Source: Haloplanus sp. GDY1
GTDB taxonomy: Archaea; Halobacteriota; Halobacteria; Halobacteriales; Haloferacaceae
Assembly: GCF_023703775.1 (NCBI RefSeq)
Contig: NZ_CP098514.1
Span: forward strand, 62,001-126,000
Direction: 5' to 3'
Length of the DNA stretch: 64,000 nucleotides
This document shows positions 13,686 to 53,205 of this stretch, piece by piece (the first letter of the stretch is position 1; each line of letters begins with the position of its first letter). The notes beneath the pieces were generated by a model that did no database searches, was not told the DNA's origin, and saw nothing but the letters and a program-made list of their open reading frames with translations. Made by a program: the position numbers and the translations under genes.

Positions 13686-14657
13686 TCAGTCGAGGCGCTC
13701 GGCCGCGTCCCGATCCAGCAGGGGTTCGGCGTTCGGCGTCGGCAGCGTCACCACGTCCTCGCTCGCGAGGTCGTACTCCCGCTCGTCGACGCCGAAGATC
13801 TCGCCCACGTCGCGGGTGATCCGCAGGGTGGTGCGGTCGGTGTCGGCGGCCTCGCCGCCGTCGGGCGTCGGTTCGGTCCCGTCCGCGCCGCCCGGCGTCG
13901 GCGCCTCGACTTCCGGGCCGTCCTCGTCGCTCCGTGCCGCCCCGTCGGCCGACGTCGCCGCGGGGGACCCCGACCCGGCCCCGGCCCCGTCGCGCGAGCC
14001 GTCACCGCCCATCGCCTCCGCGAGGAGGTCGTCGGGATCGGGCGCCGGCCCCGGATCTGCCGCGGGGTCGTCGGCCTCCGGCGGCGGGGTCGGATTTGCC
14101 GCGGGGTCGTCGGCCTCCGGCGGCGGGGTCGGATCTGCCGCGGGGTCGTCGGCCTCCGGCGGCGGGGTCGGATCCGTCGCCGACGACGCGGGCTCCGGAT
14201 CGGGTGCGGGATCGGCGGCCCCGGGTGCCGGCCCCGCGTCCGACGCGTCGTCCGCGTCGTCGGTCTCGACGTCCCCGGCGAGCGTGTCGAGGACGGTCTC
14301 GCGGTTGGTCTCGATGCGTGCGACCAGATCCTCGAAGAGGTCGCGCTCCTCGCTGGTGAGGCCCTCGTCCTCGGTCGCCATGCCGGCGGCGGCGAAGGTC
14401 GCCCGCTTGACGATCTTTCCGATCCGGCGCTCGTAGATGCTCTCGACGACTTCCTCGGCGGTCTCGATTTCGTCCGTGAGGCGGCTCACCTCCGGCGAGG
14501 AGAAGGGATCGTCGGCTTCCTCGGCGACGCGTTCGCGTTCGGCCTTGCGCTCGGCGACGTAGTCCGCCACGTCGCGGTAAAACGAGTCCCGGAGGTGCTG
14601 GAGGCTGTCTTTCTGCCGTTCGGTGCGCTGTACGGAGCGCAGTTCCTCCACGTTCAT
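13686..14657 (-). CDS. GINS complex subunit Gins51 with repeat-rich linker
   Basis: Archaeal Gins51 forms the GINS tetramer, which with MCM and a RecJ-like protein makes the replicative helicase. The 323-residue protein starts MNVEELRSVQRTERQKDSLQ, with the helical A-domain through about residue 105 (ESIYERRIGKIVKRATFAAA, ERDLFEDLVARIETNRETVL). The B-domain at the end (TTLRITRDVGEIFGVDEREY...) is joined by an acidic, Pro/Asp-rich linker of about 150 residues. The linker contains three exact copies of a 39-bp repeat encoding PTPPPEADDPAAD-like units. Its start overlaps the priS stop (ATGA-type overlap), so both subunits come from one transcript. A long linker between A and B is known in archaeal GINS, but the tandem repeat is unusual. 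Confidence 0.87.
   Translation of the reverse strand: MNVEELRSVQRTERQKDSLQHLRDSFYRDVADYVAERKAERERVAEEADDPFSSPEVSRLTDEIETAEEVVESIYERRIGKIVKRATFAAAGMATEDEGLTSEERDLFEDLVARIETNRETVLDTLAGDVETDDADDASDAGPAPGAADPAPDPEPASSATDPTPPPEADDPAADPTPPPEADDPAANPTPPPEADDPAADPGPAPDPDDLLAEAMGGDGSRDGAGAGSGSPAATSADGAARSDEDGPEVEAPTPGGADGTEPTPDGGEAADTDRTTLRITRDVGEIFGVDEREYDLASEDVVTLPTPNAEPLLDRDAAERLD
14053..14169. repeat. 39-bp tandem repeat, three copies, in the gins51 linker
   Basis: Copies lie at 14053-14091, 14092-14130 and 14131-14169, followed by the start of a fourth. Only one base differs (TTT for TCT at about 14095). The unit is a multiple of three, so copy-number change keeps the frame and alters linker length only. 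Confidence 0.9.
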
Positions 14658-17783: not shown

Positions 17784-18446
17784 CTACTCCGACCGGTCCC
17801 GGCGCGCGACCCGCTCGCCCGCGGCGTCGACCCCCGGTGGCGGATCCACGACCGCCGGCGGGTCGTCGAGCCAGTCGTCGAGGCGGGCCGCCAGCTCGTC
17901 GTCCAGGTCGCGTTCGCGATACCGTCGTAGCCCGTCGCGGTATCGGCCCACGTCCCGCGTCGCTGGCCGCGCCGCCGGTCGCTCGCAGACGAGTTCGGCC
18001 AGCCCCGTCTCCGCGCCGGTGAACGCGAAGCCGGCGCGGTAGGCGGCCCGGTAGGCGGCGGGGTTGTTGACGGCGATGCGGACCCGGTCGTAGCCACGCG
18101 CGGCGGCGCGGCCGGCGACGAAGGCGAGGAGTCGGGCACCGAGGCCCTCCCCCTGCCGGTCGTCCCGGACGGTCACGTAGCGGACGACGAGGCGGTCGGG
18201 GTCCGTGCGGTCGGCGCTGAACGACGCGGCCGCGAGGACGCCGTCGTCGAACTCGCGGTCAGTTTCCGAGGAGCGTGGCTCCTCGCGGTCGGTTTCCGAG
18301 GAGCGTGGCTCCTCGTCCCCCACACCATCGCGGACCACCGCCTTGCCCGTCGATCCGAGGACGAACTTGCCCGCGTAGGCGAACCGCCGGTAGTCGAGGC
18401 GGAGCGTCGGGGCGTTCGGCGGCCACCCGAGGCAGGCGAACTCCAT
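17784..18446 (-). CDS. GNAT family acetyltransferase with palindromic repeat insertion
   Basis: The 220-residue protein begins MEFACLGWPPNAPTLRLDYR. The acetyl-CoA binding motif A is VVRYVTVRDDRQGEGLGARL, with the V-x-x-x-R-x-x-G-x-G core, followed by a typical AFVAGRAAARGYDRVRIAVNN helix-strand. Its substrate is unknown. Between beta strands in the N-terminal third, about residues 43-62, the sequence contains two copies of the decapeptide EEPRSSETDR encoded by a 30-bp direct repeat. This segment looks inserted into the loop before DDGVLAAASFSAD. The gene is divergent from the methyltransferase gene, which carries its own insertion, with 57 nt between their starts. Confidence 0.8.
   Translation of the reverse strand: MEFACLGWPPNAPTLRLDYRRFAYAGKFVLGSTGKAVVRDGVGDEEPRSSETDREEPRSSETDREFDDGVLAAASFSADRTDPDRLVVRYVTVRDDRQGEGLGARLLAFVAGRAAARGYDRVRIAVNNPAAYRAAYRAGFAFTGAETGLAELVCERPAARPATRDVGRYRDGLRRYRERDLDDELAARLDDWLDDPPAVVDPPPGVDAAGERVARRDRSE
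18255..18314. repeat. 30-bp direct repeat, two copies, each containing a hairpin
   Basis: Copies lie at 18255-18284 and 18285-18314 with one mismatch. Each contains a perfect 8-bp inverted repeat around a 3-nt loop (CGAGGAGC-GTG-GCTCCTCG at 18267-18285 and 18297-18315). The unit length is a multiple of three and keeps the acetyltransferase frame. Confidence 0.9.
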
Positions 18447-18503: not shown

Positions 18504-19196
18504 ATGCACGGCTCCGGCGACGTCCGATTCTTCGACCGCGTCGCGACCCTCTACGACCGACTCGCGCCGGCGACGGATCCCGAACCGCTCTGGGCCGGAC
18601 TCGCGCGGGCCGACCGCCCCGTCGAGCGGGTACTGGACCTGGCGGGCGGCACCGGCCGGGCGGCGCGGGCCGTGAGCGAACCGGGGACGGGGTGGCGCGC
18701 TCCGGAGACCCTGGTCGTCGACGCCTCGCGACCGATGCTCCGCCGGGCGGCCCGCCGCGGGTCGGCGGCCGTACAGGCCGACGCGGGGCGACTCCCCCTC
18801 CGCGGCGAGGCCGTCGACAGCGAGGGTGATGGGTCCCATCGGGCAGACGGCGAGGCCGTCGACAGCGAGGGACCGGAGCCCCCTCGGGCAGACGGCGAGG
18901 CCGTCGACGCCGTCGTCGTCCTCGACGCCCTGCATCACCTCCCGGACCCCGGGGCCGCGCTCTCGGAGGCGGCGCGGGTCCTCCGACCGGGTGGGGTCCT
19001 CGTGATCCGGGAGTTCGATCCCGGGACGGTCCGGGGGCGGGCGCTGGTCGCGGCGGAGCGACTCGTCGGCTTCGACTCGACGTTCCGCGGCCCCGACGCG
19101 ACGGCGAGCGCCGTGGCGGCGGCGGGACTGACCCCGTCCGTCCTCGACCGGGGGTTCGCGTACACGGTGGTCGGGAAGAAGCGAGGGAGCCATTAG
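18504..19196 (+). CDS. Class I SAM-dependent methyltransferase with repeat insertion
   Basis: The 230-residue protein begins MHGSGDVRFFDRVATLYDRL and has the SAM-binding motif I VERVLDLAGGTGRAARA, motif II with the acidic residue LVVDASRPML, DALHHLPDPGAALSEAARVL (motif IV region) and RPGGVLVIREFDPG. It resembles the UbiE/COQ5-like Methyltransf_11 group; the substrate is unknown. Between ADAGRLPLR and AVVVLDALHH, where the core fold needs a short loop, sit two copies of a 15-residue unit starting GEAVDSEG and a third partial GEAVD. I infer an in-frame expansion of an original GEAVD segment. The DUF3054 gene follows 21 nt downstream. Confidence 0.83.
   Translation: MHGSGDVRFFDRVATLYDRLAPATDPEPLWAGLARADRPVERVLDLAGGTGRAARAVSEPGTGWRAPETLVVDASRPMLRRAARRGSAAVQADAGRLPLRGEAVDSEGDGSHRADGEAVDSEGPEPPRADGEAVDAVVVLDALHHLPDPGAALSEAARVLRPGGVLVIREFDPGTVRGRALVAAERLVGFDSTFRGPDATASAVAAAGLTPSVLDRGFAYTVVGKKRGSH
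18804..18908. repeat. 45-bp tandem repeat (2.3 copies) with internal hairpins
   Basis: Units start at 18804, 18849 and 18894 (partial, 15 bp). The first 22 bp of each unit are identical, and the middle part differs but is palindromic in both: GATGGG-T-CCCATC (18828-18840) in unit 1 and CGAGGG...CCCTCG (18866-18886) in unit 2. The unit junction GACGGC-GAG-GCCGTC is a further hairpin. Confidence 0.85.
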
Positions 19197-51682: not shown

Positions 51683-53205
51683 CAGATCGCTTTCAGGCTG
51701 TCCTCGCTCGGCTCGTAACACTTCCCGCTCATCAGCGCGTCCTCGATGGCGTCGGCGACGGCGCCGGGGTCGGCGCCGTACTCCTCGACGACCGCCGCGA
51801 TCACGGCCTCGCGGTCCGCGCCGTCGCCGTCGTCGAGGTCCGCCATCGCCTCGACGGCGACGGCCTCGAGGTCCACGTCGGCGGCCGTCCCCGGGCTCTC
51901 GGCGGCCGCCTCGTCCGCGGCTGCCCCGTCCGGGTCGGCCGCTTTTGCGGTGTCCTCCTCGGCTTCGTCCGACGCCGCCCCGGACCCCGCGACGTCCTCC
52001 GGTCCCGGGACGTCGATGTCGGCCTCGCCCGGGTCGTCGACGTCGACCCCGCTCTCGAAGCCCACGTCGAAGGACTCCTCGACCTCCCGACGCTCCTCCT
52101 CGTCGAGTTCGTAGAGGTCGTCGTCGTCGAAGTCGCCGAGGTCGTTCCCCGCGTCGTCGGTCCCGCCGACCGACGCGTCGTCGACGCTCGGGTCGGCCGT
52201 CGAGTCCGGGGCGGACGCCTCGGTCGACGCGGCGTCCGGGGCGGTCCCGTCGTCGGGGTCCGTCGCCGTCGCGTCCGCGGCAGGTTCGGTGTCCGCGGCA
52301 GGTTCCGCGTCCGCGTCGGGTTCCGCGTCCGCGTCGGGTTCCGCGTCCGCGGCGGTCCCGGTCGACGCCGCCTCGCCCTCGGGCGTCGAGTCGACGGGCT
52401 CCGTCGACGTCTCGGCGGCCGCCGCCTCGTCGCTGGTCTCGGTGGCCGTCGCGGCCTCGCCCCCGCCGCCGGTCACCGCCGCCGGCAGCGGGCCGAGCGA
52501 CGAGGTGCCCGCGTCGTCCGGCGCCCGGTCGAGCGACCGGACGGCGTCTCGGTCGCCGGCGACCACCTCCAGCGCGTCGAGGGCGACCTCCCGGAGGGCG
52601 TCGAGGTAGGCGGTCGTCGTCCCGTAGCGGTCGAGGGCGATGGGGATGCCCGCGGAGAGCGAGGCGTCGTAGCCGCGCTCCCCGAGCGCCGCCTCCAGCG
52701 CGTCGCCCTCGGCGTCGAGCGACCGGGCCTCCGCCATCGCCGCGATCCGGCGGAGCGTGGCCTCCGCCGCGGAGACGGTCCACCGGTCGCGCGTCTCGGC
52801 GTCCACCTCGGCCACGCTCTCCGGGCGCACCGACGTGTAGATCCGGTCGCCGTCGTCGGGTTCGAACGTCCGTGCCTTGCCGGTGAGCGCGACGAACGCC
52901 GGCGGGTCCGTCCGCTCGAAGAAGGCCGCGGCGTCAGGCTGGTACTGGCCGGCGTAGGAGACGAACGCGCCCGTCGGGTCGACGACGCGGGCGCGGAGGA
53001 CGTCCTCGTTGACCGACTCCACCTCCGTCAGGACGCCCACGGCGAAGAGCCGGTTCACCCGCGCGCCCGTCGGCGTGACGACGTACTTCGGCGCGCGCTC
53101 CTCGTCGCTCTCGGCGTAGGAGACGGTGGCGTCGTCGAACTCGGCGGCGAAGAGGCGGTGGGCCACCTCGCGGCGTCCCGGCCCCGAGTCGTCGCCGGCG
53201 CTCAT
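51682..53205 (-). CDS. RPA-associated protein (RPAP1-like)
   Basis: The 507-residue protein begins MSAGDDSGPGRREVAHRLFA and has an OB-like N-terminal domain (KYVVTPTGARVNRLFAVGVL, RARVVDPTGAFVSYAGQYQP, PAFVALTGKARTFEP), the COG3390 type. A long acidic, Ala/Asp-rich disordered linker with degenerate EPDADA units follows, then a helical C-terminal end (ADREAVIAAVVEEYGADPG) and ALMSGKCYEP. RPAP proteins of Haloferax form a complex with their cognate RPA. The length here fits the RPAP1 type more than the short RPAP3. Start and stop overlap the neighbouring rpa and phosphoesterase genes by 4 nt, so the three are translationally coupled. Confidence 0.85.
   Translation of the reverse strand: MSAGDDSGPGRREVAHRLFAAEFDDATVSYAESDEERAPKYVVTPTGARVNRLFAVGVLTEVESVNEDVLRARVVDPTGAFVSYAGQYQPDAAAFFERTDPPAFVALTGKARTFEPDDGDRIYTSVRPESVAEVDAETRDRWTVSAAEATLRRIAAMAEARSLDAEGDALEAALGERGYDASLSAGIPIALDRYGTTTAYLDALREVALDALEVVAGDRDAVRSLDRAPDDAGTSSLGPLPAAVTGGGGEAATATETSDEAAAAETSTEPVDSTPEGEAASTGTAADAEPDADAEPDADAEPAADTEPAADATATDPDDGTAPDAASTEASAPDSTADPSVDDASVGGTDDAGNDLGDFDDDDLYELDEEERREVEESFDVGFESGVDVDDPGEADIDVPGPEDVAGSGAASDEAEEDTAKAADPDGAAADEAAAESPGTAADVDLEAVAVEAMADLDDGDGADREAVIAAVVEEYGADPGAVADAIEDALMSGKCYEPSEDSLKAI

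Follow-up and report, generated by a model that had tools for sequence, protein, structure and literature searches.

The hairpin-bearing repeats in an acetyltransferase gene of Haloplanus sp. GDY1 are most probably copies of a mobile element that is short and non-autonomous, forms hairpins and resides in haloarchaeal protein genes. What was observed directly is that the element is dispersed, has a 42+3 anatomy and covarying stems, favors one reading frame, varies in tandem number, and is represented by filled and empty sites as well as by relics; no transposase or other mobilizing enzyme was identified for it, and neither polymorphism within a species nor a new insertion event was observed.

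Two insertion sites in the window

The window, i.e., the whole 64,000-nucleotide stretch that was analyzed (C1:62001-126000 of a 3.44 Mb genome), had been the subject of a sequence-only reading that described two in-frame 30-bp copies, each bearing a hairpin, which add EEPRSSETDR twice to a GNAT acetyltransferase. The repeat finder, a comparison of the palindrome with shuffled sequence and translation of the minus strand all bore out this description (Table 1). Tandem Repeats Finder reported a period of 30 with 2.1 copies and 97% matches for 18252-18315, both units contain the perfect palindrome CGAGGAGC-GTG-GCTCCTCG (8-bp stem, 3-nt loop), and they differ from each other by a single silent base (ACC/ACT). 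With up to 3 mismatches allowed, the hairpin pattern matched the window four times, as opposed to 0.14 matches expected and 0/100 shuffles; the repeat is not a product of chance. The GNAT protein matches Pfam Acetyltransf_1 with an E-value of 1.5e-7, and prediction of its structure from the single sequence yielded a pLDDT of 41 and no reliable model. Alignment places the insertion in a segment of variable length across haloarchaea, and only the window genome has it (0 of 11 congeners).

The neighboring methyltransferase gene, 0.5 kb from the array, reads GAC-core-GAC-core-GAC at 18816-18908, which corresponds to two in-frame 45-bp units that are missing from the syntenic orthologues in six congeners. 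The GNAT array and the methyltransferase copies therefore represent two independent insertion sites in the window. Two other tandem repeats were recorded there, an imperfect GC-rich repeat of 39 bp, a multiple of three, at 14027-14198 (3.8 copies, 91% matches) and an 18-bp repeat at 52270-52353 (4.7 copies, 89% matches).

Table 1 Genes, repeat units and element cores in the window.
Feature	Position	Strand	Remarks
GNAT acetyltransferase gene, carrier of the array	17784..18446	-	ORF (start placed at 18446), Pfam Acetyltransf_1
30-bp unit 1	18285..18314	-	codes EEPRSSETDR
30-bp unit 2	18255..18284	-	codes EEPRSSETDR
Hairpin 1 of unit 1	18297..18315		stem CGAGGAGC/GCTCCTCG, 3-nt loop
Hairpin 1 of unit 2	18267..18285		
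Class I SAM methyltransferase gene, two further element copies	18504..19196	+	Pfam Methyltransf_11; orthologues without 2 x 45 bp
42-nt core, copy 1	18819..18860	+	9+6 stem variant, hairpin 1 decayed; GAC flanks
42-nt core, copy 2	18864..18905	+	GAC at 18861-18863 and 18906-18908; model R1 42.6 bits, E 3e-9

Anatomy and pairing of the full element

The full form is a twin hairpin, recognized by reading some 80 loci, where the short hairpin often proved to be no more than the leading half of a larger unit. Its 42-nt core consists of RG, hairpin 1 (8-bp stem, 3-nt loop), a 4-nt spacer and hairpin 2 (7-bp stem, 3-nt loop), and GAC usually stands on both sides, so that one insertion adds 45 bp, or 15 codons. 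The 30-bp unit is present in the GNAT gene, as first described, but the full unit is the 42-nt twin hairpin plus GAC; the shorter unit had been our first guess for the mobile one and was abandoned once the 45-bp insertions emerged. We infer that the GNAT units are a shortened, tandemly expanded form of the dispersed element, derived from the full form. A second layout with stems of 9 and 6 bp (EASETPRATGEAGD) leaves the total of 42 nt unchanged and has GGCA or GGAA as spacer (L135 1466, L136 1466, L048 and L122). Among 71 isolated distinct copies, GAC lies upstream of the core in 43 and downstream in 51 (the GAC codon background in three window genes is 5.7%); these triplets are compatible with a 3-bp duplication of the target as well as with an element whose own end reads GAC.

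Pairing was assessed in an alignment of 33 copies (A1). Since pairing in hairpin 1 and across the five inner pairs of hairpin 2 had been among the criteria by which these copies were picked, the proportion of paired cells, 98.6%, is inflated. Eight of the 15 pairs have changed on both sides, with 58 double-changed cells against 18 in shuffles (0/500) and 0-4 in slid controls, and the outer pairs of hairpin 2, which lay outside the selection criteria, are mostly U-A (17) or C-G (14) and G-C (19) or A-U (10). Neither the double-sided changes nor these outer pairs are accounted for by copy selection. A reversed-sequence control for the twin hairpins is uninformative (a palindrome reversed stays a palindrome) and was excluded as evidence. 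Perfect hairpin-1 stems alone comprise 15 different sequences. Changes in the stems preserve pairing but replace residues of the peptide (E to V, A or G; T to P or S), and what the copies have in common is therefore less an amino-acid sequence than a paired structure. Rfam gave no match above the gathering score in five element-bearing loci.

Dispersal through the Halobacteria

Had the segment been fixed in all orthologues, with no other genomic copies, the idea of a mobile or expandable element would have been refuted; instead, in-frame copies are scattered through unrelated genes of the host genome and of other haloarchaea. At up to 2 mismatches, the 19-nt hairpin occurs at 14 sites in the source genome, compared with 0 for the reversed pattern. 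These sites fall in six unrelated genes, namely those for the GNAT protein (2 units of 30 bp), a family III CoA-transferase (4 units of 27 bp), a DUF502 protein (3 units of 30 bp), a NarJ-type chaperone (3 units of 30 bp), a GHMP kinase and an AzlC permease, and all 14 share one codon phase, GAG GAG .. .. TCC TCG or one-base variants of it. With the loop left free, the pattern CGAGGAGCNNNGCTCCTCG was present in 52 of 292 Halobacteria genomes as opposed to 1 of 292 for the control, the genus of the window genome being the richest.

For the census we used a covariance model, R1, whose E-values are rough (the calibration was shortened). It found 27 copies in the window genome (E<=0.01), and 9-68 in each of 12 congeners (418 overall). 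Across the class Halobacteria, 128 of 145 genomes, representing 50 of 58 genera, gave matches, with best E-values of 1e-14 to 1e-16. Carriers include Halolamina, Halobacterium, Natronococcus, Natrinema and Haloterrigena, as well as a plasmid of Haloferax alexandrinus, where the host gene is annotated as a histidine kinase. The host genes are unrelated (MetRS, MutS, photolyase, DapB, PhzF, UDG, histidine kinases), and the strong R1 matches that were read (76 loci) lie nearly all inside coding frames. A weak match in the window genome (L218, G000:C3:19499-19550) has a perfect CGAGGCGC/GCGCCTCG hairpin and no clear coding signal, and is possibly an intergenic relative. None of three exact patterns was found in viral contigs, a result of little weight in view of the stem variability. 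In several histidine kinases (L196, L197, L153, L146, L367) the element, in the form SVEHGST and often as tandem copies, coincides precisely with the N-box (NLFRNSVEHGST), and this box may be the source of hairpin 1.

Filled and empty sites in orthologues

Comparison of orthologues yielded six genes in which the filled site is longer than the empty one by exactly 45 bp (G000 is the window genome, the other G labels are congeners): quinone oxidoreductase (filled in G280, empty in G080), a MenD-like gene (filled in G294 and G289, empty in G135 and G173; the name is tentative, the gene fragment having no Pfam match), photolyase (filled in G173, empty in G135, G000, G294 and G296), PhzF (filled in G173, empty in G135, G294, G239 and G296), MetRS (filled in G280, empty in G173, G294, G296 and G135) and UDG (filled in G294, empty in G080 and others). 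Copy number varies as well. The CoA-transferase has no copy in eight species, one short unit (+30 bp) in G293, 4 x 27 bp (+108 bp) in the window genome and degraded units, or relics, in G289 and G080, while in MutS a single segment is empty at four sites, holds relics at several and a fresh copy at one. The variable presence and copy number looked for among close relatives were accordingly found, both in the CoA-transferase (0, 1 or 4 copies) and in the GNAT gene, whose insertion has no counterpart in congeners. Of the two properties that the sequence-only reading had proposed, expansion is seen as variation in tandem number, whereas mobility is only inferred from filled and empty sites, no event having been observed.

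The same reading had confined the element to loops. This agrees with the length-variable gap in the GNAT alignment and with MetRS, where comparison with the archaeal entry 1rqg shows the element as an extra segment amid conserved blocks, but other copies lie at protein ends, at the C-terminus of the DUF502 protein and the N-terminus of the NarJ-like protein.

Reading frame and orientation

No fewer than 84 of 91 distinct full copies were called in one frame and orientation. This main frame is free of stops and, alone among the frames, acidic, with a mean charge of -2.1 compared with 0 to +4 for the others. Among the remaining seven copies only that in the UDG gene of G294 (L359/L365) scores convincingly, the rest being weak and some close to gene ends. 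The UDG copy (+45 bp) lies in reverse orientation between GTC triplets, which are GAC on the opposite strand, and encodes a different, basic peptide; insertion is therefore possible in either orientation, and the copy suggests that DNA, not peptide, is copied. The survival of insertions is probably filtered by the host protein, and we infer that insertion at Asp codons in acidic segments, combined with selection against basic or hydrophobic inserts, suffices for the frame bias. The near-total restriction to coding sequence and to one frame, which is stronger than reported for the Rickettsia elements, could also mean that the element spreads as coding sequence, for instance by gene conversion. 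In G289 the UDG gene (L360) is truncated near the G294 insertion site; no remnant of the element remains at the break, and no link was found.

Discussion

A full insertion consists of the 42-nt twin-hairpin core and a GAC triplet. It is usually placed at an Asp codon (GAC), within an acidic segment of variable length, and we propose that the host protein usually tolerates the insert because 45 is a multiple of three, the main frame is free of stops and the peptide is acidic and hydrophilic. Once inserted, a copy may multiply in tandem with periods of 24, 27, 30 or 45 bp, as we suppose for the GNAT gene of the window, or it may decay to an ordinary acidic linker. By inference, the hairpin would be needed for copying or insertion and not by the host, spread into GAC sites would proceed through a copy mechanism acting on DNA, and the effect on the host would be near neutral.

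A more specific version of the mobile-element reading, which we regard as possible but rather unlikely, would have the element be a MITE- or PATE-like derivative of IS200/IS605, moved by a Y1 transposase (TnpA) for which the hairpins and a GAC target would be the recognition sites. In having two hairpins and a short target triplet the element resembles IS605, Y1_Tnp matches are present in 9 of the 12 congeners, and the top copy count (68) and top Y1 count (9) coincide in one genome. Y1 enzymes, however, read specific hairpins, and the stem sequences of the element vary widely. Nor is a resident Y1 transposase necessary for carriage, because G289, a single contig, has 40 copies and no Y1 match (G296 likewise has no match, and a lost enzyme cannot be excluded). 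The PATEs of Haloquadratum do establish that small transposase-free elements with palindromes occur in haloarchaea, their terminal-only versions measuring just 52 bp, but they originate from the ends of IS605 and are not described as inserting in frame into coding sequence (PMC3119063).

It also seems improbable that the replication machinery alone produced the repeats, without any mobile element, by template switching between short direct repeats (GAC...GAC), through which quasi-palindromes in acidic loops would arise, become perfect and be copied in tandem. Independent local events of this kind would not yield the architecture, spacer (GGCA/AGCA), hairpin sequences and 42-nt length common to unrelated genes of different genera, even if the tandem periods and the short flanking GAC repeats are consistent with slippage. 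Quasi-palindrome correction by template switching would also give perfect stems of changing sequence. Spread at the protein level, as a functional acidic peptide or tag favored by its benefit to the host, would fit the single dominant frame (84/91) and an acidic peptide suited to haloarchaeal proteins; it is very hard to reconcile with a peptide that changes while pairing is kept, with the absence of the copy from most orthologues, with the basic peptide of the UDG copy and with relics that decay. That the repeats arose by chance, or as simple low-complexity sequence in an acidic proteome whose GC-rich codons favor short palindromes, is virtually ruled out, as is an explanation by tandem repeats alone, by the controls (14 against 0 sites for the reversed pattern, 52/292 against 1/292 genomes) and by filled sites that exceed empty ones by exactly 45 bp.

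A bolder form of the mobile-element reading can be offered only tentatively, as something less than an even prospect: class-wide, coding-specialized mobile DNA with a fixed 42-nt twin hairpin, a GAC target and a length of precisely 15 codons, which without a dedicated transposase would still be seeding in-frame peptides in essential genes and was possibly born from the N-box (NAVEHGST).

Among known systems, the likeness to Rickettsia palindromic elements (RPEs) that had been suggested from the sequence holds for the way the element works and not for its length and build. RPEs (Ogata et al. 2000, 2002; reviewed in PMC2229807 and PMC10969869) are dispersed hairpin-forming repeats that lie in frame in unrelated housekeeping genes, where they are tolerated, and spread by an unknown mechanism. 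They are known from Rickettsia, with long stem-loops, a length of 105-146 bp and locations that extend to intergenic regions and RNA genes. The haloarchaeal element is likewise dispersed, palindromic, in frame in unrelated genes and missing from orthologues, but in length and build it is distinct, being smaller (42+3 bp with two hairpins, below the length of RPEs), practically restricted to coding sequence and spread through a whole archaeal class. Coding palindromes are also on record for Wolbachia (Ogata 2005, cited in PMC2996958) and for Methanocaldococcus jannaschii, where the repeats are palindromic, have coding potential and lie inside protein genes (Suyama et al. 2005, cited in PMC2996958 and PMC2229807); the latter are archaeal and in protein genes too, but their host is a methanogen and not a haloarchaeon. 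PARCELs (palindromic amphipathic repeat coding elements) share with the present element palindromic coding DNA in tandem units, but build up tracts of tandem domains, especially in surface proteins, with none reported in archaeal genomes (PMC2996958), whereas ours comes mostly as one to four units in enzymes and does not form such tracts. REPs are small, mainly extragenic palindromes that carry a GTAG or CGTC tag and are associated with RAYT genes, and they are sometimes found inside tRNA synthetase, ligase and photolyase genes (PMC3733652); the haloarchaeal element differs in its GAC/GAC flanks and coding location, lacking both the tags and the extragenic setting. A full-text literature search returned no description for haloarchaea, with most subscription journals outside its reach, and a prior report cannot be excluded.

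Previous descriptions of coding palindromes concern a few intracellular bacteria and a single methanogen; to these is now added a whole class of free-living archaea, with up to dozens per genome. The exact filled and empty sites, fixed length and target triplet make both the movement of the element and the gain of protein segments directly testable, and genetic systems exist in Haloferax and Haloarcula. Some of the 'acidic insertions' in haloarchaeal proteins may be relics of a mobile element, and not adaptations to salt.
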